This document shows, in pieces, positions 3,204-37,891 of a stretch of DNA of 37,891 nucleotides. The stretch is from a virus, in IMG/VR virus record IMGVR_UViG_3300042463_000966, positions 1 through 37,891 of that record. The stretch is one strand, 5' to 3'. The stretch's first letter is position 1. Every line of letters begins with the position of its first letter. The position numbers and the translations under genes are program-made. The notes under the pieces were generated by a model. It worked only from the letters and a program-made list of their open reading frames with translations, ran no database searches and was not told the origin of the DNA.

Positions 3204-3485
3204 ATGACTATACAAGAATTTGAAGCAAAATTTACAATTGATCCCGCAAAAGATATTGAACCTCATTTTAAACTTGATAAAACTTTAGATATTGATACTA
3301 CACAAAATAAAGGTTGTTATAGTTGTAAAGATCAAGTTAATCAAGAAACATTGAAATCTATACCTTGGACAGGATTAGTATATTGCTGGAAATGTAAAAC
3401 ATTAAATGTAATCTATTTCTCAGATAGAATGGGAGGAAATCATACAGATAGAGTTGAGTGTTATGTAGAATTTAAAAAGAAATAG
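3204..3485 (+). CDS. Zinc-ribbon hypothetical protein, 93 aa
   Basis: Two cysteine pairs, CYSC (residues 38-41) and CWKC (residues 61-64), bracket about 20 residues, which fits a zinc-ribbon fold. The N-terminal 35 residues are acidic and the C-terminus is basic (EFKKK). It follows another small zinc-ribbon gene and precedes the DUF1566 gene with two-base spacings, so all are on one message. Function unknown. Confidence 0.6.
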   Translation: MTIQEFEAKFTIDPAKDIEPHFKLDKTLDIDTTQNKGCYSCKDQVNQETLKSIPWTGLVYCWKCKTLNVIYFSDRMGGNHTDRVECYVEFKKK

Positions 3486-3487
3486 TT

Positions 3488-3838
3488 ATGGAAGTAATAA
3501 TAGATGGAATAGTATATGTTCCTAAAGAAAAAGATAAAGAACTAGAATCAATTATTGTAGAACAACATTATAAATTTGAAGTACATCCTGAAGAATTAGG
3601 TAAAATGAATTGGGAAGATGCTGTAAAAGCAGTTAAAGAATTAGGAGATGATTGGAGATTACCAACTATTGAAGAATGCTTTATTATGTATAATCATAAA
3701 GTAATTACTACTGACAGCTATTGGAGTAGTACGGGGACCAACTACGGCCTCGCGTGGTCCTTCCTCTTCAACTATGGGAATGCCTACTACTACAATAAGA
3801 ACTTCACAAACTATGTGCGTGCGGTTAGGTCAATTTAA
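3488..3838 (+). CDS. DUF1566/C-type-lectin-fold protein, likely DGR target
   Basis: The protein is 116 residues. Residues 37-116 match the DUF1566 (Lcl C-terminal/FGE-like) pattern: MNWEDAVKAVKELGDDWRLP, then YWSST (78-82), then AW, F, G and K landmarks ending in YVRAVRSI. In known DGR target proteins this C-type-lectin-like fold displays variable residues on its surface to bind ligands. Its last 114 bases are unlike the rest of the genome: GC-rich and with NNC codons at the expected variable positions. No reverse transcriptase or template repeat was found in the window, so the diversifying partner must be elsewhere or lost. The N-terminal 35 residues are probably an attachment or partner-binding segment. 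Confidence 0.75.
   Translation: MEVIIDGIVYVPKEKDKELESIIVEQHYKFEVHPEELGKMNWEDAVKAVKELGDDWRLPTIEECFIMYNHKVITTDSYWSSTGTNYGLAWSFLFNYGNAYYYNKNFTNYVRAVRSI
3719..3832 (+). repeat. Candidate DGR variable region (VR)
   Basis: From the TAT-TGG of YWSST to the AGG of VRAVR, base composition jumps to about half GC in an AT-rich genome. Codons at the surface positions are acc, aac, tac, ggc, ctc, tcc, ttc, ctc, ttc, aac, gcc, tac, tac: third base always C, first two bases varied. This is what adenine-specific mutagenesis of AAC codons in a template repeat produces. The invariant end (gtgcgtgcggttagg) would be the initiation-of-mutagenic-homing segment. The template repeat is not in this window. Confidence 0.7.
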
Positions 3839-25114: not shown

Positions 25115-28100
25115 TTATTTTAATAGTGTAGCTTTAAATGATTTAACTGCTGCTTCTGGATTAAAATTATATCCAGAGAAACCCATTAGTTTAAGAAAGT
25201 ATGCCCAAGATTTATTATCACCTTTATTCCATACACCTTCTTTTCTTTGATAACTTAATTTTTCAGGACTCCATGTAAATAAAAATTGATCAACAAATTT
25301 TGTCATTCTTTCTATTGTACTAACCATAGCTGATGGAGATTTAACAGTACGATAAGCATCTTGAGGAGATATATATGATGCAGTTTCAGATTGCATTCTA
25401 GATAATTCATACAACATAAAATTGTATACATATCCTTTTTTCTCATCATCATCATCACCAAAAGCATGCATTAATAACATTATAAAAGCAGTTGTTCCAA
25501 ATATGATTACTGTTTCAGCCATTACTCTTTTGATTTGTGCTTTTTCAAAAGGTGTATATGTTGACCAGTTCTGCATCATATTAAGTTTCAGCTTAGCCAA
25601 ATCTTTTAACATTGTATTATAAAAAGTTATATAGTAACCTTCAGTTACAGCACCAAGTTCTTGATCTACTTGAAGTTTACCATATCTTCTTTTATAACCA
25701 GGTATAAGATGTTTTCTATACATGATAGCTAATCTACCTACTGAATATCTTTGTGCAGTACCTTTATCAAAATCATTATAGACACCATGTAATTTTTTAC
25801 TTATTGCATGTATTCTATTTTGTAAGTCAAGTTTCTTTGTATTATTGAAATCTGTATTTTTATCAAGTTCTTTAATGCCGTATTTAGTATATGCATCTAA
25901 AAGAGAAATTGTTTCTCCAGTATTAGTATCAGTTACTTTAGTTGCTTCCATTAATGCAAACATTGCAGATACTTGTATCTCATGCTCACCAAAATGCTGA
26001 TTAAAGAATAGTGTATCTGTTCTCATTAACTTAGCAAATACACTACCTGAAACATTTTTACCATACTGATCTTTATAGTTACCTTGCATTGGGTCATAAT
26101 GATTTACAAGATTACCTACTAATGAATCAGGTGTTGGTTTACCAAAATCAGAAAGAAATGAGGTTACATTTTTTGCATAATACAATTTACCTTTTCTTAA
26201 ATCTTTTCTACTGAAAAATTCAGATGAGTTAGCTTCAATAATTAATTGGATATTACCTTGTAAATTATTTGCAACACCTTTAAGTAAATCTGCAGCAATA
26301 CTTGTTATAGCAGAATAACTTAAAGCAAGATTTGTTAATTTACCCATAGAATAACTTCCAATTACTTCAGCTTTTTGCATTTCATTATATAATTGCATAT
26401 TTATAAATGCATCTACATGTTTTTTAGAATTTGCTTCACCTTGTTTTTTAATAGTAGATTTAATACCAAGTTTATTTGCAAGTGCATCTAATACTTTAAC
26501 ATCTTTAGAAGTAGTTACAGCAACTTCTCTATCTCCTATAATGGCTTTAAACATTGATGTTTCTGCTGAGATATTATTTACTGATTCATATTTATTTGCC
26601 ATTTGAGAATAAAGTTCTACAGATCTTATTAAATCTAAACTTACTTCATCAGCATCCATATCTTGAGTATAGTATACGGGTATAAACTTTGCACTTTCAT
26701 TAGATAAATCTGAAACACCAAATTCAGGTTCATCTCCTCTTATAGTTGTTGCATCTTCAAATTTATCTTTTATAACACTTTTAATACTACTTCTTTCTAT
26801 AGTACGTTTATGTATTGATGGTAAAACATAACCCATTTTTTGAGTATCTGGTACTTTTTCTTGAGCATCAAGATATAGATTTAATAAAAATGAATGGTAT
26901 TCCCCTTTAGCATTTTTAGGTTTATCATTTTTATCATACAAAGCTTCCCATTTTTTATTAAGATATTTATCAGCTGGCTCACTAAATTCTTTCATATAAA
27001 TCTTAGTACCATTATCTAAGATTTTTAAAACAGATTTATGCCATTTATCATAATCTTTTTGATTCCAAGCACCAGAATTTAGTAATTTATTTTTTTCAGC
27101 AAGAATTTTATCAATTTCTGCATCACTTTTCTTTTGTGCATTCTCAGCATACCAGTCTCTTATTATAGTAGTTTTATTAGCTTCATAATCAGATTTTGCT
27201 CTTAATTGAGCAGGTGAAAGATCAGTACCTTTAATTGGATTAGTATATATTTTATTTAACTCTTTATTATAATCACTCATACGGTATTTTTGTACAAAAG
27301 CCATTTTTTTAGTAATAACAGGTTCACCATTCTTATCTGTACTATAAGATGATAATACTTCATATAAACCTTCATTAAACTTAGCTGGATTGTCTCTGCT
27401 TTCTGCTTGACTATCTTTATATTTTGTAAATGCTTTACCTGCAAGTTTTGCTATATCTATATCCAATTGTCTTGCACTTTCAAATTCTGTTTTAACTGCT
27501 CTTGCAAATAAACCTAATGAAGCATCTGCATTAGTTATTAATGGTCCAAACCAAAATTCCATTGAACCTTCATCTTTAGCAGCAAATTTTAATAAATCTT
27601 CCATTGACTCTTGAGTCTGTGTAAAAGATCTATATTTAGTAATTCTATCTGTTATCTGTTTAATTTTTTTATCATTAGCATTTGCAGATGTTTTTTCAGC
27701 TTCTAATTTTTTTATTAATGCATTTACTTCATTATCAATTGCTTCATCTAAATTTAAATTTTTATAATTAAGTAAAAATGAGGCCATTAATGGTATACCC
27801 TGTCTTATATATTGTTCTTTAACTGCTTTTTTTATTGAGATTGCATCTGTTAACATTTCTCTTATAGTTTTACCAGTTTCTTCAGAGACTTGTTCTTCTC
27901 CTTCTTTTGCAGTAAAAAAACTATATATATCAGCTTTAGAAATTTCATCAAGAATACTATAACCACTAGCAAAATTATTTAACTTAGTAAGTTCAGCAAT
28001 TTGATTTTTTTTAAAATCATCTGTGCCATCATCTTTTTTATTAATGATAGCTTTCATTAATTTTTCAATTTCTAAAGCTTTTTCATAACTGTCTTTAACA

Positions 28101-28429
28101 AACATGTTAATAGAATTAATACCTTCAAGATGTCTAAATTCTTCAATTAATTTTTTTTGTCTTTCTTCTTTTTCTTCTTGATTAATTAATTTTTGACCTT
28201 GAAGTATTTTTAATTGTTTTTCTAAATATCCCCAAATACTATCCACCATAGTAGATATATCATCTTTTTTTACTTCAGCATTATCAGTTAATTCATCAGG
28301 TATATAATTTAAATCTTTATTATTAGCAAAACCTTGTTTAATCCATTCTTCTTCAGCTCTAGTATCATTTCCATTTACTGAGTTAAGTATTTTTACATAT
28401 TCTTTGCTGGTTTTAATTGGGCAATACAT
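25115..28429 (-). CDS. Large virion-type protein, 1104 aa
   Basis: A long, mostly helical, charged protein that starts MYCPIKTSKEYVKILNSVNG and carries Lys/Glu-rich coiled segments (e.g. LIEEFRHLEGINSINMFVKD). Near the C-terminus (bases about 25450-25525) there is one hydrophobic helix (AETVIIFGTTAFIMLLMHAF) followed by an acidic DDDDEKK. By size and place beside the RNA polymerase gene it resembles the internal cargo/ejection proteins of crAss-like phages, thought to be injected with the DNA. No enzyme motif was seen. Placement in the virion is inference. Confidence 0.68.
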   Translation of the reverse strand: MYCPIKTSKEYVKILNSVNGNDTRAEEEWIKQGFANNKDLNYIPDELTDNAEVKKDDISTMVDSIWGYLEKQLKILQGQKLINQEEKEERQKKLIEEFRHLEGINSINMFVKDSYEKALEIEKLMKAIINKKDDGTDDFKKNQIAELTKLNNFASGYSILDEISKADIYSFFTAKEGEEQVSEETGKTIREMLTDAISIKKAVKEQYIRQGIPLMASFLLNYKNLNLDEAIDNEVNALIKKLEAEKTSANANDKKIKQITDRITKYRSFTQTQESMEDLLKFAAKDEGSMEFWFGPLITNADASLGLFARAVKTEFESARQLDIDIAKLAGKAFTKYKDSQAESRDNPAKFNEGLYEVLSSYSTDKNGEPVITKKMAFVQKYRMSDYNKELNKIYTNPIKGTDLSPAQLRAKSDYEANKTTIIRDWYAENAQKKSDAEIDKILAEKNKLLNSGAWNQKDYDKWHKSVLKILDNGTKIYMKEFSEPADKYLNKKWEALYDKNDKPKNAKGEYHSFLLNLYLDAQEKVPDTQKMGYVLPSIHKRTIERSSIKSVIKDKFEDATTIRGDEPEFGVSDLSNESAKFIPVYYTQDMDADEVSLDLIRSVELYSQMANKYESVNNISAETSMFKAIIGDREVAVTTSKDVKVLDALANKLGIKSTIKKQGEANSKKHVDAFINMQLYNEMQKAEVIGSYSMGKLTNLALSYSAITSIAADLLKGVANNLQGNIQLIIEANSSEFFSRKDLRKGKLYYAKNVTSFLSDFGKPTPDSLVGNLVNHYDPMQGNYKDQYGKNVSGSVFAKLMRTDTLFFNQHFGEHEIQVSAMFALMEATKVTDTNTGETISLLDAYTKYGIKELDKNTDFNNTKKLDLQNRIHAISKKLHGVYNDFDKGTAQRYSVGRLAIMYRKHLIPGYKRRYGKLQVDQELGAVTEGYYITFYNTMLKDLAKLKLNMMQNWSTYTPFEKAQIKRVMAETVIIFGTTAFIMLLMHAFGDDDDEKKGYVYNFMLYELSRMQSETASYISPQDAYRTVKSPSAMVSTIERMTKFVDQFLFTWSPEKLSYQRKEGVWNKGDNKSWAYFLKLMGFSGYNFNPEAAVKSFKATLLK

Positions 28430-28447
28430 ATTGTTTAGAATTTTTAA

Positions 28448-29206
28448 TTAACACAAATTTTTAAGTACTTTAACCATTATTTTGACTAACTCAGATTCAG
28501 TAGTAATTACTTCTAATTCATCAAATATATCATTAATGTCAATACCTTTATAAGCAAGTTGTTCTTCTGTAAATAGATTTAACATAGTATCATTTACAAA
28601 AGAATTAAATGCTTTTTGATTATATGGTTTTAAAGATACTGGTTCTTCTACTAATTCCATAGTATCTAGGTCAATATTTTTTAATAATACTATTTTACCT
28701 GATAAATCTGTTATATCATATGTATCATTATTATTTAAAATAGCTTTTGAACCACCAATTATAACTGATTTTGGTTTTTTACCAGTCTTCTCAAATTCTT
28801 TTTTATATTCAGTTTGAATAGGGTATTCTTCTATGTATTCTTCATCTACTTCTATTTCTGCTTCTTCTCTATTTTCCTGATCAAATAAAGCTTCATCACC
28901 ATTATAAAAACTAATATCTCTTTCATCAAAATCTACTTCACCAGACATCATTGCTAACTCTTCTTCTATTTGTAATTGAGCATTATATTTTTCATCAACA
29001 ATACTATCAAGAACTTTTTCAGAAATGTTTATTACAACTATATCTTTATCAAAAACACTTTTACTAGCTAGTTTAGGATATTCATTATTAATATCTTTTA
29101 AGATTCTTTCAGCATTAAAGTCACTATGTGTAGTATCTCTATACCCACCTAGTTTTTTATCAATTTCTTTATTTAAATCTTCTTTAATTTGTAGTTTACA
29201 AGCCAT
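28448..29206 (-). CDS. Acidic hypothetical protein, 252 aa
   Basis: Starts MACKLQIKEDLNKEIDKKLG. An acidic Glu/Asp segment in the middle (REEAEIEVDEEYIEEYP) is followed by a beta-like region and a helical C-terminus. It lies 10 bases after the giant gene and 18 bases before the 1104-aa gene, in one - strand unit. Likely a third internal or assembly protein of this block, or a polymerase-binding factor. Unrecognised. Confidence 0.6.
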   Translation of the reverse strand: MACKLQIKEDLNKEIDKKLGGYRDTTHSDFNAERILKDINNEYPKLASKSVFDKDIVVINISEKVLDSIVDEKYNAQLQIEEELAMMSGEVDFDERDISFYNGDEALFDQENREEAEIEVDEEYIEEYPIQTEYKKEFEKTGKKPKSVIIGGSKAILNNNDTYDITDLSGKIVLLKNIDLDTMELVEEPVSLKPYNQKAFNSFVNDTMLNLFTEEQLAYKGIDINDIFDELEVITTESELVKIMVKVLKNLC

Positions 29207-29216
29207 AATATTATTA

Positions 29217-32200
29217 TTAACAAGATTTTTTATAAAGTGAAGCTGCTTCTAATATTCTTTCTTTAGTTAAAGAATTTAATACAGATTCATCACCTACAGT
29301 TTTTCCAGAATCAATTATTCTATTATCTGAAAGCACATAATAATTTTTTTTATCAAAGGTAGACACTCTTAATGTACCATCTTGTAATTCTTTTCTAATA
29401 TACACTTTATTTTTAATAGTTTGTTCAGTTAATTCTTTACCGTTACCATAATATATTTTACCATCTGGTTTAATTGTGAAAGTATATTGATTTACTATTA
29501 TATTTCTTTCTTCTGGTACTGGATTTTCAGTTGTGCCTTCTCCAGTTTGTCCATCTGGTTCTTCTTCAGTTACTGAAGCTTGTCTTTTTGCAACTGTTTG
29601 TATTTTTTCAAGTGCAGGTAAATTTGGATAAATCTTTTTAAGTTCAGCATGTAGTAGAGTTGAAAGGTAATTTCTATTTTCTTCCCATATATTTAAATCA
29701 AATTCAGGTGTACCATATATAAGATTTTCATTTCTAAATCGCTTTTCTATAAGTAATATTAAACCTTTCATTTTATCTGAGCTTTTAGTAAGAACAGTAT
29801 CAAGTACATCTTTACTAATTCTATAATTATTTAGTAAATCCTCAATTTTAATAAATAATGAATTAAATTTACTAGCCGGTATGACTGCTTTAAGTTTTTC
29901 ATAAGGTATTTTATAATTATAATCAAAAACTTTACCTACTGGAGCTTGTTGTTGAGTAGATGGTTGAGTAGTAGGTTTAAATATAATTGAACCATCAATG
30001 TAATTATTTACATTAGGGTCATTAGCAATCATCATAGCTGCAATTTTATCAAAAGTAGATGTATTCATCTTATTAGAAATAAATTCTCTAGATGCTGGTT
30101 CTACTATTTCAAAGTATGTAGTATCAGGAAGAACATAACTAAGACCATATTTAGTGTTACCTACTCCATTCTGTAAAACAGATATAAGAGGTAATATCTT
30201 AAACATGTCTGATATTTTTTTATTCTTAACTGGATCTTTTACTTTAATAACATTTTCATCAGCAAGATCAATTAAGTTTTGATGATAACTATCAGATAGT
30301 GCTCCTTTTACTACAGGTTTATTGTTTAATGTTAATACAGATATCTGACCTTTAATTTGCTTAGTTTTAGAATCAAATATATTTACCGGTACATCAGTAA
30401 TCTGTTCTAGTACTGAATACAATTCTTTTAAGTGAGTATTTTCACTTATCATACTCATAAATCTAGTCACATATGCTTGGTGATTTAAAGAATTAAATAA
30501 TTCTGGTACACCTGGGAATGACTCTTTAGTAGTTATTATCTCATTTAATCTGTTTTGATAAATATAATTTACCATTGCTTGTTTAAATGATGTGATAAAA
30601 TTAGTTATGCCATCTGCTCCTTCACCAAATTTAAGTGGAATGTTATTATTATTAATATAATTAAGTAAATAATCAGATACTCTTTTATCATCTGTTAATG
30701 GAAATAAAGGTTCTACTAAATCTTGAGTAATAACATTATCAAAGAAAGATCCTAATATAGACTCTTCTCTTAATTTTCTTACTAAATCTTGATCTATTTT
30801 AGATGACCTAGATAAAATATCTAAACCAATTTTTCTTTGCATGATCTCCTGTATAGTTTTAGAAGTAGCAGTATCAGGATTTGACTGTCTTTTAAGATCA
30901 GCCATATCTTTTATTTGCCTTTCATATTCTAGGTAATGTAAGAACATTGCAATAGCTTTTGGACTTGTAGTATCATTACTTTCCATTGTCTCTTTTAAAT
31001 CAGCTGTAGTAAACTTATCCATACCTTCAGTTGCTGCAAGTACAACATCTTTATAGTTTGGAGTAGACATTGGGTGATAAAACGCATTATTAGGATCTGC
31101 AATTATACTTTTAAATATTACATTACCTTTAATATCAAGTAATGCATCAGTATAGTCTAATTTAATCTCACCTTCAGTAATAAATTTTTTAAATTCTTTA
31201 ACAGTAATTTCAAATGAATCTTTATTATTTTTTGGTTTTACTTTTATAATAGTATTAGGATTAAGATTATCTAATGTATTATTTAATCTATTTTCATTTG
31301 CTTTAAAAATAGCTTGACTAATATCAGTTTGTTTTAATGTAGCTTGAAGAGCATTATATTTTGCATTTTCATCAGGTAATGTTTCTTTACCAGTAAGATT
31401 TGCATATGTACTAGCATATAGTCTTTGTTGATTTGCATATTCTTTTACTAATGGTTGAGATATAAAATAAACTGCTTGTCTTTTTGGGACACCAGCTTTA
31501 AGTAAATTCAACAACATTGGTATAAGTTCTTTATTAGCTTGAATAAAGAAAATCCATGCATCTTTCTCAACATCCACAGAACCATTCATTAAATGTGAAA
31601 ATAAATCTGCTATTTTATCTTGGCCATCTACACTATTAATACCTGATAAAGAAATTCTTCCATCTTCAGTTTTATTATGATCAAGTAATAATCTCATATC
31701 ATAGATTATACTTTTATCATCTTCATATTTTTTAGTCCTTTTATTTTTAACTGAACCATAATATGTTTTTGGTAAAGCAGCACCTAATGCTGTATACAAT
31801 GGATGTAATGCATTTTCAAGAGCAATAATACCTAATACATCTTTCCCTGTCATATTATAATCATGTTTAGCTAGATTATAACCTACCTCTAATGTATTTG
31901 TTGGACTAATAGTTTTATATCTTCCATATTCAGGTGAAGAGTCTACTAACTCATCTGCAATATCTTTCATTAAGTAAGTTTCATTTGGTCTTACTAATGT
32001 AGCATAATTATCAGGTAGTTGTAATATACCTCTGATAGAATCAATTAATCTATTTTCAATTGCTTTTTTCTGTAATGCAATTAATTTAACTACTTCAGCT
32101 TTATCACCTTTAGATTCTGCATTTGCAATTAATTTTTTTAATGTTTCCTCAGATATATTAGATGTTACATAATTACCATTTTCATCTATATTAGGCATGA

Positions 32201-35200
32201 ATGTAGTAAGCTTATCAACATCATAATCTGCTCCTGATTTAGCAACAATTTCTGATGGAGGAATAATAATAGAACCTGCAGCTGGATCTAAAAATTCATA
32301 TACTTCCATAAACTCCATAGAGTTCATTCCTTGTACAGGGATCCTTACAGCTGATAAAGTAACAGATTTCCGGTTATTGCCTTTATTTAACCACTCATCA
32401 TTTTTAATTAATACATTTAATCTTTCTCTTGTACCTATTTCTACACCATCAAGATCTTTCAGTTTTAAAAGATTTTTAAAATCACCTTGTAATGCAATAG
32501 CAACTTTCATTGCAGATGTATTACCATTTTCACCTGGATTATAGAAAGGTAAGTTATTAGTACCTAAGTATTTTTCTATTTCTGCAGTTTGAGCTTTTTC
32601 AAATTTAAAACCTGAATCCCATAATCCATTAGTTAAAGAACTAGCAACCTGTACTAATGCTTCACCTTTTACTTTTTGTTTTATGATTCTTTTTTCAACA
32701 AGTGATGTTATCATTTTTTCAATGTCTCCTGAAAGCATATGTAATGATAAATCTTTTGTTAAAACATTATTAGAACCAACTTGAATATAGTCAATTAAAT
32801 GTTCTGGTAAATCTTTTCTAGTAAGTTCTCTTTGAACTACATCCATGAATTTAGTTATATTACCACTAACATATTTACCATCTTTATATTCATAACCAAT
32901 TTCATTTAATAATTCAGTTTTTAGTATTTCAGTATAACCATTTACAGCATCTTCATAAGCTTTAACAAATGGTGCATATTCTTGATTAACTAATTTACCA
33001 TTCTCATATAAACCTTCAATAATAAGTTTTCTTAACTGAGTAGAGAATACTGTTTTACCTTTTAATTTAATTGGAACAGCTGTAACATTTTTAAGATATG
33101 CTAAGTATATTGTATTTGGAGTAAAAGCAATATCTGATTTTAATGTTTTTTGAGCACCATTATCATCATATATCTGATCTGCTACTGCTTTACCATCTTT
33201 ATTTAATTGAGATGTTACACTACCTACTTTAGAACCAGTTTGGAATGTAGCATATTGTATATTACCTTTCATCATTTGGTGATGTAATGACTCTAAATCA
33301 GAACCAACAATAAGTGATGGAATTAATGGCATCAATGCAAATTTATGCATTGCATTAACCGGTAATGGTGTATTAGCTAAATGGCCAAAGTGTTGTAATT
33401 TATATACAGGAAAGATTTGTGTTATATCTTCAGTACTAACTTCTTTACCACTAATTACTTTTTGGAATAAATCTTCTTGTTCAGATGACCAATTCTTTTC
33501 AGCAAGTCTTAATAGACGGTATGCATCAATAGTTATATAACCTTGACCATCACCCTCTTCCATATCTTTATATGGTTTTAATTCTTTAAGAAGTCTTTTA
33601 TCAATTTCTGCTTGAGATAATCCTCTGTTTTTATAATCTTCTCTTAGACCTTTTTCAATATTTTTAACATATACTGAACTTCTTTTAACTTCCTGCATAA
33701 TAGCAGTATTATAAGTGTTACTGTAACTAAATGGAGCATAATCACTACCAAATTCATCCATAGTTGCAAGTTTAGCACCATATGATGTACCTTTAATTAA
33801 GTCACTATTTAAAAAGTTTTGAGTATAAAGATCATCCATGAATCCTCTACCACCTGAAGTAGAACCTGGATTTCTTTTATGTAATTCTTGTTTAGCATGA
33901 TTATACTGTACAATATCACCATATATTAAACTAGCAGTCTCAAAATTATGAATCCATGCATTCATTGTATGTGCTTTAATAAGCGTAGTTTCTTCATCAT
34001 CTGTTGATAATTCATAAACTTTTAATTTATTTGTTAATGCTGGGTCAATCCATTTAGATTTTTGAAAATCTTTCTTGTTATCAGCAGACTGTCTTTCAAA
34101 ATATGCACTTACTTGCTCAGTTATATCTTCTTTTAATTTAGGGTCTGACTCTAAATAATCAAGTAATTTACCATCTTTTACTTTTTCAATTATCTCTTCT
34201 TTAGTATCTTTAGTTAATATATTATCAAATGCAGTAAAGAACTCACCAGCCATTCCAAGAACAGTTTTACCATCTGCAGATTTAATTTCTCTATTATAAC
34301 CTACATATTTTTTATACTCTTCTTTATTTCCTCTTATTTTTTGTATTCTAAGTAACTCAGCTTGGATATAACCTAAAAATATATTATCAACAGCGTATTG
34401 ATTAGCATCTCCTCCTGGTTTAAATTTTTCAATGTCAACATATAAGTTTAACTTATTAGACTTCATACCAAATGATGATGACTTAGAAGCATGTCTCATA
34501 AATTCTTGGAAACCTGATTTTAACATCATGTTTAATTCTTGAATATATTTACTATGTACATCAAGAGAAGTAGTATTAGCACCATCAAGATTTACTATTT
34601 GAGTACCAGACACCATTACAAGATCTAACTTAGCATCTCCTCTTCTTGCCCATGTATTTTCTTCAACCTCAAATATACTTTTAAGTAATTGTGATTGCTC
34701 AGTAAAACCGTTTATCAATGGATTAAGGTAACTCATATAGTTATATCCTTTATTCATCCATAAATCTCTACCATTTTTAACATTGTTAATAGCATCTACT
34801 ATCATAGTAACACTACTATCTTCTGTAAATTCATTTACAAGTTTTTTCTCTGCATTTAATACACTAAAACTTGCATAATTATTACCATATTTACTTTGTA
34901 ATTTTGCTAAGTTTTGTATTACAGCTTTTTCACTTGTAGTAGTTTTATATATACCTGCAGGTATTTTACCATATAATGCATCAATAGGATTATCTATGAA
35001 TTTTTTAATAAATTCTTTTTGCTCATTATTACTAAGTTTAGAATCTTTATTTAATGTATCAACTGCTTTTGCAATTTGATATATATAAAAAATACTATAG
35101 TCTTTAGAACCTAATTCATCTTTAATACTTTTTAAATCTTGTAAACCAATTCCTAATGCATTAACAAATTCAATCTGTTGTGCAGGTAAAGCAATAGATG

Positions 35201-37891
35201 CAGTAGTAGGAAAAGCTTTAATTAGTGTATCAAGTTTTAATGCTGATTTATTATTTTCATTTTTACTGATATATTTAGTTTCTGCAGATGAATTAAATGC
35301 ACTCTTAAAACTATTTATAATATTTTTAAATTCAATTGAAGCATCAGTTACTTCAGATTTATAATTACCTGTTTCTTTATCTGTATCAACTGTTAATTGA
35401 ACATATCTTATTAAAGGTTTTTTAAAATCTTGCCAAAATGCTGCTTTGATATTAAATTCTTGTAATGTTTTAATATTTCTTGGATCTGGGAATTTATTAT
35501 TTACAAGTTGTGCTAATTCTGGATAAAAAGGTATAGCTTCTTGAAGTTTAAGATACATTTTAACTGGATTCTTTTCACCTCCAATTACTTTAGTAACTGT
35601 ATTCCATATTTTACTAAAGTCAACTAATTCTGGAAAACCTAATGGCCCTTCTACTTGTTTACCATCAACTATTTTAAATAGACTTTTTAGAATGTAAAGA
35701 GTTTCTTTTTCAGCTAATTGTAATAATGATTTTTCACCTACTTCACTTTTAGATACTGCTTCAGATTCTTCAACAACTTCTGTACCAGTTTTATCTTCAT
35801 CTATTTCAGTTTCTTCTTCATTTATTTCAATGTACTTTTGTTTAATTAAATCAAATGTACTGTGTTCTTTATGAAACTCTAATACATTATCCCAATTAGC
35901 AAGTGCTTCTTCTATTATTCTTATTTTATTATTTAATAAACTTCTTTTATTAAAATCTTCTTGAGGAGTAGTTTCTAGTTCTGTTTTGAATTTATCAAGT
36001 CTTTTATTAAATCTTAATTCAATTCTAGCATAAGCTTCTTTTTTATTTTTATCAATAGTTAATATCTGAATAGTTCCAGTTTTATTTACTGTTACTATAT
36101 TTCCTGCTAGATCTTTAACTTTATTAATATTTTTATTAAGTCTATCATTATACACTTCATCAATAATCTGTGATAAAGCAGAATCAATTTGATTTGATAC
36201 CTTAAGACTATCTTGATAATTTAAAACAAGTTCTTTTGTTTCAGTGTTGACTATACCTCTTGCTCTATTAAGAGTGTTGAACATATGGTTATCAACAAGT
36301 GGAGTATATTTGTTTAAAAGCTTAGGGTTTTTACTTGCAAAAAATAATTTCTCAAATAACTCATCTTTAGTATTTTGTTTACCAAATAATGCTTTAATGA
36401 AATTCCAGATTTTTCTGAATAAACTATTTCTTGTTGGCCCATCTTTTATAGTTTGAGGATTTTTAGCATAATCTCTAAAGTCTTCAGCAATAATTTCTTC
36501 TACTTCAATTGGAGAAAGATCATAGTTATTTAATCTTTTTCTTGTCTCAGCATATAACTTAGTTTTTTGATCCTTAGTTAAATATAATTGAGAAAATGCA
36601 TGCCAAGCTTCATGGTATAAATCTACAGCAGAACTACCAGTAGCAGTATCTAATTGTATTTTAGTATCCTCTAATCTTTTACCTGCTATAATAAATCTTG
36701 CATAAACATCAGAGTTAACAATGTTAGCCATGTGCTCAAGTTTAATAAGTTTAGATAATGGAGAATTATCCCACCATTCTTGAGCAGCAGTAATTTCTTC
36801 TTGAGTAACATTATTAGGTAATTTAGCAGATCTATTTAAATCAAATGCATCACTTATACCAGTTGTATCATCAGCTTGACCAACTTTATCTGGATTAGTA
36901 AGTGGTTTATCTTTTTCAGCTGCTTTTTGTTGTGGAGTAACAGTTGCTTTAGGAGTTTTTGGTTTTAAGGTAAAATCAGTTTGACTTACTTGACCTATTT
37001 TTTTATCTCCTTTATATATTGATATCACATCAGTTATAGTAGGAGATACATCATTAACTATAAATGTTACCGGATCACCAATTTTTATACCTGCAATTGG
37101 TTTACCATCCTCATATCTACCTTCTACACGTACACCATCTATCATCATTTCAAATGTAGCATCTGTAAGTGCTTTACCACTGTATATAGTACCAGATAAA
37201 TCTTTATTAACTTTTAATTTAGCAACAAGGTTATCTTTAGTTTCTTTAATTTTATCTACAGGAGTAGATGTTGTTGCTTCTTTAACTTCTTCTGTTTCAG
37301 CAATAAAATCTTTATCAATTCTAAATTGAAAATATGGATTATTTACTGCTTTATCTTTATCATTTTTTTCAGTATCTGGTTTTAAAACTTTTAAGTCTAA
37401 TCCATTAAGAAAATCTTTATATGACTTAGCTATAAGTTTATCAGTAGTACGGTCATATGTATAAAATTTACTGACACCTTTACTTATAAGTAAATCTTTA
37501 TTATAACCCATGGTAGTAGCATAAATTTCTGTTTCACCATTAGTTTTAACATATGTACTTTCATACAATAAACTGTCAATTATAATTTTTTCAGCACCAG
37601 AAGCTGATAAATCAAATAATTGAGCACTTTCAGAAGACTTAGTTCTATATTTAGCTGTTAATTCTTTTGTTACTGAATCATAAAATACAAGTAATTTTCT
37701 TTTATCTCTATTAATATTATTATTAGTAAACTGTAAATAAAAATTATTTTTCTGTTCATTAGTTAATTTAGGATTTACTAATACAGCAGCAATTTGATTT
37801 ATGTATTCTTCAGGTAAATTAGGTCTATCAATTGTATAATAAGTATCATTTACATATACTTGAGCAGTAAATTTATCTGGATTAATTTGAA
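29217..37891 (-). CDS. Giant RNA polymerase with N-terminal zincin domain (5' partial)
   Basis: The frame is open to the right edge of the window: at least 107 codons continue upstream of base 37568 without a stop, so the true start is outside and the protein exceeds 2,800 residues. HEAWH at bases 36600-36614, with EEIIAEDF downstream, is a zincin/gluzincin motif. SGADYDVDK, with its DxDxD motif at bases 32214-32228, follows PVQGMNSMEFMEVYEFLD and PPSEIVAK. This is the double-psi beta-barrel metal-binding signature of the single-chain RNA polymerases of crAss-like and YonO-type phages. Long flanking regions are unrecognised. It is thought to be packaged and injected to transcribe early genes. 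The protease could mature the virion cargo. Confidence 0.87.
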   Translation of the reverse strand, partial: QINPDKFTAQVYVNDTYYTIDRPNLPEEYINQIAAVLVNPKLTNEQKNNFYLQFTNNNINRDKRKLLVFYDSVTKELTAKYRTKSSESAQLFDLSASGAEKIIIDSLLYESTYVKTNGETEIYATTMGYNKDLLISKGVSKFYTYDRTTDKLIAKSYKDFLNGLDLKVLKPDTEKNDKDKAVNNPYFQFRIDKDFIAETEEVKEATTSTPVDKIKETKDNLVAKLKVNKDLSGTIYSGKALTDATFEMMIDGVRVEGRYEDGKPIAGIKIGDPVTFIVNDVSPTITDVISIYKGDKKIGQVSQTDFTLKPKTPKATVTPQQKAAEKDKPLTNPDKVGQADDTTGISDAFDLNRSAKLPNNVTQEEITAAQEWWDNSPLSKLIKLEHMANIVNSDVYARFIIAGKRLEDTKIQLDTATGSSAVDLYHEAWHAFSQLYLTKDQKTKLYAETRKRLNNYDLSPIEVEEIIAEDFRDYAKNPQTIKDGPTRNSLFRKIWNFIKALFGKQNTKDELFEKLFFASKNPKLLNKYTPLVDNHMFNTLNRARGIVNTETKELVLNYQDSLKVSNQIDSALSQIIDEVYNDRLNKNINKVKDLAGNIVTVNKTGTIQILTIDKNKKEAYARIELRFNKRLDKFKTELETTPQEDFNKRSLLNNKIRIIEEALANWDNVLEFHKEHSTFDLIKQKYIEINEEETEIDEDKTGTEVVEESEAVSKSEVGEKSLLQLAEKETLYILKSLFKIVDGKQVEGPLGFPELVDFSKIWNTVTKVIGGEKNPVKMYLKLQEAIPFYPELAQLVNNKFPDPRNIKTLQEFNIKAAFWQDFKKPLIRYVQLTVDTDKETGNYKSEVTDASIEFKNIINSFKSAFNSSAETKYISKNENNKSALKLDTLIKAFPTTASIALPAQQIEFVNALGIGLQDLKSIKDELGSKDYSIFYIYQIAKAVDTLNKDSKLSNNEQKEFIKKFIDNPIDALYGKIPAGIYKTTTSEKAVIQNLAKLQSKYGNNYASFSVLNAEKKLVNEFTEDSSVTMIVDAINNVKNGRDLWMNKGYNYMSYLNPLINGFTEQSQLLKSIFEVEENTWARRGDAKLDLVMVSGTQIVNLDGANTTSLDVHSKYIQELNMMLKSGFQEFMRHASKSSSFGMKSNKLNLYVDIEKFKPGGDANQYAVDNIFLGYIQAELLRIQKIRGNKEEYKKYVGYNREIKSADGKTVLGMAGEFFTAFDNILTKDTKEEIIEKVKDGKLLDYLESDPKLKEDITEQVSAYFERQSADNKKDFQKSKWIDPALTNKLKVYELSTDDEETTLIKAHTMNAWIHNFETASLIYGDIVQYNHAKQELHKRNPGSTSGGRGFMDDLYTQNFLNSDLIKGTSYGAKLATMDEFGSDYAPFSYSNTYNTAIMQEVKRSSVYVKNIEKGLREDYKNRGLSQAEIDKRLLKELKPYKDMEEGDGQGYITIDAYRLLRLAEKNWSSEQEDLFQKVISGKEVSTEDITQIFPVYKLQHFGHLANTPLPVNAMHKFALMPLIPSLIVGSDLESLHHQMMKGNIQYATFQTGSKVGSVTSQLNKDGKAVADQIYDDNGAQKTLKSDIAFTPNTIYLAYLKNVTAVPIKLKGKTVFSTQLRKLIIEGLYENGKLVNQEYAPFVKAYEDAVNGYTEILKTELLNEIGYEYKDGKYVSGNITKFMDVVQRELTRKDLPEHLIDYIQVGSNNVLTKDLSLHMLSGDIEKMITSLVEKRIIKQKVKGEALVQVASSLTNGLWDSGFKFEKAQTAEIEKYLGTNNLPFYNPGENGNTSAMKVAIALQGDFKNLLKLKDLDGVEIGTRERLNVLIKNDEWLNKGNNRKSVTLSAVRIPVQGMNSMEFMEVYEFLDPAAGSIIIPPSEIVAKSGADYDVDKLTTFMPNIDENGNYVTSNISEETLKKLIANAESKGDKAEVVKLIALQKKAIENRLIDSIRGILQLPDNYATLVRPNETYLMKDIADELVDSSPEYGRYKTISPTNTLEVGYNLAKHDYNMTGKDVLGIIALENALHPLYTALGAALPKTYYGSVKNKRTKKYEDDKSIIYDMRLLLDHNKTEDGRISLSGINSVDGQDKIADLFSHLMNGSVDVEKDAWIFFIQANKELIPMLLNLLKAGVPKRQAVYFISQPLVKEYANQQRLYASTYANLTGKETLPDENAKYNALQATLKQTDISQAIFKANENRLNNTLDNLNPNTIIKVKPKNNKDSFEITVKEFKKFITEGEIKLDYTDALLDIKGNVIFKSIIADPNNAFYHPMSTPNYKDVVLAATEGMDKFTTADLKETMESNDTTSPKAIAMFLHYLEYERQIKDMADLKRQSNPDTATSKTIQEIMQRKIGLDILSRSSKIDQDLVRKLREESILGSFFDNVITQDLVEPLFPLTDDKRVSDYLLNYINNNNIPLKFGEGADGITNFITSFKQAMVNYIYQNRLNEIITTKESFPGVPELFNSLNHQAYVTRFMSMISENTHLKELYSVLEQITDVPVNIFDSKTKQIKGQISVLTLNNKPVVKGALSDSYHQNLIDLADENVIKVKDPVKNKKISDMFKILPLISVLQNGVGNTKYGLSYVLPDTTYFEIVEPASREFISNKMNTSTFDKIAAMMIANDPNVNNYIDGSIIFKPTTQPSTQQQAPVGKVFDYNYKIPYEKLKAVIPASKFNSLFIKIEDLLNNYRISKDVLDTVLTKSSDKMKGLILLIEKRFRNENLIYGTPEFDLNIWEENRNYLSTLLHAELKKIYPNLPALEKIQTVAKRQASVTEEEPDGQTGEGTTENPVPEERNIIVNQYTFTIKPDGKIYYGNGKELTEQTIKNKVYIRKELQDGTLRVSTFDKKNYYVLSDNRIIDSGKTVGDESVLNSLTKERILEAASLYKKSC

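Follow-up and report, generated by a model that had tools for sequence, protein, structure and literature searches.

An orphan DGR variable repeat in a crAss-like phage matches a template in a Chitinophagaceae genome and is probably diversified in trans

The DGR of Bordetella phage BPP-1 has its reverse transcriptase (RT), Avd and template repeat (TR) beside the target gene, mtd, whose product is the tail fibre tip. Its machinery has been shown to act on a target placed on a separate plasmid (PMC12875486). DGRs are also present in crAss-like phages, including crAssphage LMMB and the epsilon and zeta groups, where the phage encodes the RT and the target is a tail protein (PMC7290462, PMC11054128, PMC12386605). 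In Thiohalocapsa PB-PSB1 the DGR has remote targets, and a perfect match at the non-adenine positions is used as the criterion for activity in trans within one bacterial genome (PMC10907252). Gut prophages with second, distal variable repeats carry their own RT, and such second repeats have been reported close to counter-defence genes (PMC12629997). Our searches of the open-licence literature gave no paper in which a DGR encoded by the host diversifies a phage target, which does not in itself prove novelty. The locus described here has a C-type lectin target, as the phage systems above do, and machinery that could serve it was found in a bacterium.

The window, that is, the whole stretch of DNA analysed, is the 37,891-base virus record IMGVR_UViG_3300042463_000966, which is classed as linear. 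Its first 25 kb form a block of early and replication genes on the + strand, encoding a uracil-DNA glycosylase, a DnaB-like helicase, a Sak4-like annealing protein and a DNA polymerase, and three large genes on the − strand follow. These three genes (25115-37568; 1104, 252 and 2783 aa) have no Pfam match and occupy the position where crAss-like phages have giant proteins. A 73.9-kb record, G001, overlaps the window by 37.8 kb at 99.995% identity and encodes two crAss ring proteins (CrAss_Ring_1 and CrAss_Ring_2) as well as the crassvirus muzzle protein (crAss_MUZ). Because this overlapping, near-identical record has the crAss ring and muzzle proteins, the window phage is classified by sequence as a member of Crassvirales. 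A 52.7-kb record, G1088, overlaps and extends G001 with 99.8% identity over 21.9 kb, and the two together give about 105 kb of the phage species. About 14 kb of the species is unsequenced, as estimated from the colinear relative G1090, and none of the viral records is classed as complete. Many of these records are presumably from freshwater, judging by their sample numbers.

The ORF at 3488-3838 on the + strand encodes a protein of 116 amino acid residues. It matches PF07603 (Lcl_C) with an E value of 1.4e-11, and the predicted model has a C-type lectin fold with a mean pLDDT of 80, for which the best PDB match is 8q4e, the C-terminal domain of Legionella Lcl (E 1.6e-5). According to profile and predicted fold, the protein is thus a C-type lectin (Lcl_C/DUF1566). 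No relative of it was found in the cultured-phage collection. The gene lies among early and replication genes, in agreement with the original prediction, which had put it among early accessory genes and considered a non-tail function. This position suggests that the lectin is not a classic tail fibre and may instead act, for instance, as an exported adhesin, an anti-defence protein or a decoy.

The target gene consists of a constant 5' part (3488-3715, + strand) and a variable repeat (VR) at 3716-3829 (+ strand). Homology to the bacterial template described below spans this last third of the ORF. The DGR block originally placed at 3719-3832 is real, with slightly different limits. The VR starts with one NNC codon followed by TAT TGG AGT AGT and ends with TAT GTG CGT GCG GTT AGG. 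Its GC content is 48% compared with 28% for the window, and less than 0.1% of 114-base windows are as high. NNC codons account for 18 of its 39 codons, compared with 6.1% of the 4110 codons in the other + strand genes; a GC-rich NNC block in an AT-rich genome, as claimed, is indeed there. At least 18 NNC codons were also seen in a few other stop-free 39-codon windows in any frame, and among these must be windows that cover the VR itself at an offset. The invariant 3' end of the VR is GC-rich (TATGTGCGTGCGGTT, 3812-3826, + strand). It is the same in the bacterial TR and VR, and it is common to the phage VRs too except for the final bases. By analogy with BPP-1, it may act as an IMH-like element. 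The end TATGTGCGTGCGGT is likewise common to the window VR, the bacterial repeat and the phage VRs. A stem-loop in the DNA downstream of the VR was considered but is not claimed: an AT-rich hairpin is present in the window and in the related phage loci L004 and L006, and it is weak or absent in L024, L034, L042 and L049, so that no 3' stem-loop is conserved across the phages compared.

A single scan of 84,980 genomes of bacteria and archaea with a DNA pattern made from the reconstructed template gave one matching contig. This contig (CANNJE010000181.1, hereafter L059) is 4.5 kb long and belongs to the Chitinophagaceae MAG ZH-Oct18-54, whose name we take to point to a lake sample. It encodes, in order, a T9SS sorting-domain protein (Por_Secre_tail), an Lcl_C target of 321 aa with a VR, bAvd, the TR, an RVT_1 protein and a TetR_N regulator. 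The TR is full of AAC codons and the RT has YVDD; The cassette of TR, RT and Avd is intact and has its own VR. Because the DGR is flanked by the T9SS and TetR genes, the contig is read, from its gene content, as chromosomal in character. A template with A at the variable sites and an adjacent RT, which the original prediction proposed to look for, thus exists; its assumption of a Bacteroides context was not supported, since no tie to Bacteroides was found and the matching DGR is in Chitinophagaceae.

The L059 TR and its own VR are equal at 62 of 62 non-A positions. Compared with the window VR, the TR is equal at 61 of 62 non-A positions and 17 of 43 A positions are changed; the sole non-A difference is GAC in the TR and AAC in the VR. 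The VRs of the phage loci L004, L006, L024, L042 and L049 are equal to the TR at all 62 non-A positions. Across all these comparisons with the TR, between 13 and 20 of the 43 A positions differ. As a comparison set we used nine further bacterial TRs from the wider family, obtained by searches at the family, order and phylum levels. The next best of the bacterial templates has 8-13 mismatches to these phage VRs over 84 columns, compared with 0-2 for L059. Since the nine other TRs fit far worse, the match between the phage VRs and the L059 TR is specific. The exact TR sequence by which an L059-type template can be identified is GCGTGGAACTTCAACTTCAACAATGGGAATGCC, and one bacterial genome with this exact TR was found. 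The sequence common to the phage and the L059 bacterium is limited to the VR framework, about 105 bases. CRISPR-type evidence for the host was also sought by comparing the window DNA with 396 genomes of the family Chitinophagaceae. Only matches of 36-99 bp with 73-92% identity were obtained, several of which fall on identical parts of the query in more than one genome, and they were rejected; no CRISPR or other link of the phage to the L059 lineage was found in these 396 genomes.

Three phage loci, L004, L005 and L006, were found by protein search and so are independent of matching to the VR framework. Most of the flanking sequence that can be aligned between L004 and the window has 98-99.6% identity; in one stretch the value falls to 91%. 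Within the VR, the window differs from L004 at 25 of 43 template-A sites and 1 of 62 non-A sites, from L005 at 21 of 43 and 2 of 62, and from L006 at 16 of 43 and 1 of 62 (Fisher p from 1e-6 to 1e-11). The 228 bases of the 5' part of the gene show 8 differences from L004, L005 and L006. Because near-identical phages differ almost solely at template-A sites, 3716-3829 is, on this sequence comparison, a real DGR VR, and the adenine mutagenesis claimed at the outset is seen as changes concentrated at these sites. The hypervariation bears the signature of DGR mutagenesis and is recent. The VRs of the window and G001 are identical. Most of the other phage VRs were retrieved by requiring identity at the first 18 bases of the framework, which therefore match by construction; the argument rests on the window with L004-L006 and, for the other phages, on positions outside these 18 bases. 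The pooled test gives p of about 1e-120, a value obtained after a filter of at least 57/62 and from sequences that are not independent.

When the VR was masked, the phage loci fell into four groups without DNA similarity, and all four have VRs of the L059 framework. Group 1 is that of the window, with a short early-region lectin. Group 2 is large and has longer targets; in L024 the target lies near terminase- and portal-like genes, as read from the translations. Groups 3 and 4 are L047 and L050, respectively. At the protein level only L047 stands separate, and the remaining groups are linked by some translated matches. The 79-kb contig G029, which carries L047, has two tandem lectin target genes (L099 15656-16333; G029:C1:75656-76333), and one of its VRs matches the L059 TR while the other is nearer to the G144 and G685 TRs. 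In L009, a relative with about 75-84% identity to the window phage in most of the stretches that align, the second of these VR types is present as well (TGG AGG CAG; 3367-3726). As this other type is in the same gene, the target gene may switch between host templates. The VRs of the more distant relatives L007 (10235), L008 (314) and L010 (10235) have in common a slightly different framework, AGTTCGGAG ... AAT ... GCTTGG, which suggests a further, unseen template. In L046 (3702-5783), on a 296-kb contig, a target of 694 aa has an L059-framework VR with a small insertion, and no RT is present. We also looked at 32 Crassvirales contigs found via a structural protein; these had no VR and no TR, and therefore the target gene is not universal in Crassvirales or lies outside those fragments.

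Of the parts of a complete in-cis DGR, the window phage has a VR at the 3' end of its gene and adenine-limited change, and no TR or RT was found in the sequence available. What marks a remote DGR target, a VR-TR match at non-A positions and an intact source cassette, was seen on both counts. We therefore consider that a chromosomal DGR in the bacterial host probably acts in trans to diversify the orphan phage VR. The host would be a member of Chitinophagaceae or a close relative, and its DGR would be of the kind seen in L059. The host RT-Avd complex would reverse-transcribe the host TR RNA, putting random bases opposite adenines, and the cDNA would home to the phage VR via the matched repeat and the 3' end TATGTGCGTGCGGTT. 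Some progeny would in this way gain a new ligand-binding surface on the lectin, and the phage itself would not need TR, RT or Avd. We infer here that the host encodes an L059-type DGR, that the cDNA homes into phage DNA and that the lectin has one of the early-region roles suggested above. A DGR target need not lie on the replicon of its machinery, as experiments with the BPP-1 DGR have established (PMC12875486). Several results speak against this reading: the exact TR was found on one 4.5-kb MAG contig, the search for a link between the phage and that lineage gave none, the window VR has one non-A difference, the shared sequence is confined to about 105 bases, and the phages compared have no conserved stem-loop after the VR.

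The same pattern could arise if ready-made variants were acquired by homologous recombination with the target VRs of the host or with other phages, without retrohoming. The phage VRs and the bacterial VR agree at 62 of 62 non-A positions, which is enough for short-patch exchange, and the Sak4-like annealing protein of the phage also speaks for this. We regard it as unlikely, however, because in all groups the exchange is bounded by the same repeat ends even though the lectin domain beyond them is also homologous at the protein level, because none of the phage VRs seen equals the bacterial one, and because recombination between TR and VR occurred only rarely when the BPP-1 system was reconstituted (PMC12875486).

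Another source of the machinery would be a TR and RT on a different mobile element, such as a prophage, a plasmid or a co-infecting phage, rather than on the host chromosome. Phages in a mixed infection occupy one cell, and the viral collection does include phages that have complete DGRs. When two TR patterns were run over its 2.9 million viral contigs, however, no TR of the L059 type was detected, compared with more than 30 viral contigs having VRs of the L059 framework. The viral collection also yielded no close relative of the L059 RT, the cultured-phage collection had no relative of the TR, and the sole TR found sits between T9SS and TetR genes. A mobile source is accordingly very unlikely. 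Four TR-like viral contigs, L207-L210, were rejected because their DGRs have another framework; each has an RT or a fragment of one, and they were kept as positive controls. L208 also has a gene resembling a bacterial biotin synthase, and some of the four may be bacterial.

It is also highly improbable that an RT and TR of the phage's own lie in the unsequenced stretch or have a form missed by the searches. In favour of this, about 14 kb is missing and none of the records is classed as complete, other crAss-like phages have DGR cassettes (PMC7290462, PMC12386605) and one crAss-like group has an unusual RT motif (PMC11054128). Yet the VR-bearing relative G005, which has the same gene, runs from the target across the ~14-kb gap without an RT. 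The RVT_1 profile, which in the same search does detect the L059 RT, found none in the window or in 70 further viral records that are VR-bearing or Crassvirales (71 in total, 3.1 Mb, up to 296 kb each), and G001 and G1088 have no RT. A DGR-RT profile run over 2.0 Mb of viral sequence matched only in the four positive-control contigs. No TR was found in 32 VR-bearing viral records, which are not complete genomes. The 37.9-kb window has no second copy of the repeat, and the prediction that it would lack both such a copy and an RT was correct. That the VR is a fossil, whose diversification ceased after an ancient capture of the lectin genes from an ancestor with a DGR, would fit the identical VRs of the window and G001 but is hardly credible, because L004 differs at 25 template-A sites despite its near-identical flanks and because silent positions of the framework have been retained despite a genomic GC content of 28%. 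In the drifted homologues L026, L036 and L057, by contrast, the VR region has AT-rich codons and these positions have been lost.

Beyond diversification in trans, we lean slightly towards the view that unrelated phages evolved 'landing pads' that copy the template frameworks of bacterial chromosomal DGRs, thereby exploit hypermutation by the host and are tuned to particular host templates. Tuning to the template is considered because the G029 contig has two pads of two types and L009 has the other type. Should targets fitted to host templates be a regular feature of phages, surveys based on the RT would underestimate the extent of viral hypermutation. The diversification system of a bacterium would in that case serve its parasites as well, and the matched template itself would predict phage-host pairs.

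Like BPP-1, the window phage has a C-type lectin target, a 3' VR rich in NNC codons, a GC-rich invariant VR end and adenine-restricted change. Unlike BPP-1, it has no RT, Avd or TR beside the target, which is a small early-region protein and not a tail fibre tip. The BPP-1 machinery can also reach a target outside its own replicon, as would be required here. With the crAss-like DGR phages it shares membership of Crassvirales and an adenine-diversified C-type lectin target, but those phages encode an RT and diversify a tail protein, whereas the window phage was found without RT or TR and has its target beside replication genes. In Thiohalocapsa PB-PSB1 the TR and its remote targets are in one genome, whereas here they are divided between a bacterium and a phage; and the gut prophages with second VRs, unlike the window phage, bring their own RT. 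The C-terminal domain of Lcl from Legionella pneumophila (PDB 8q4e) has the same Pfam family and fold as the window target, but it is part of a bacterial and not a phage protein.
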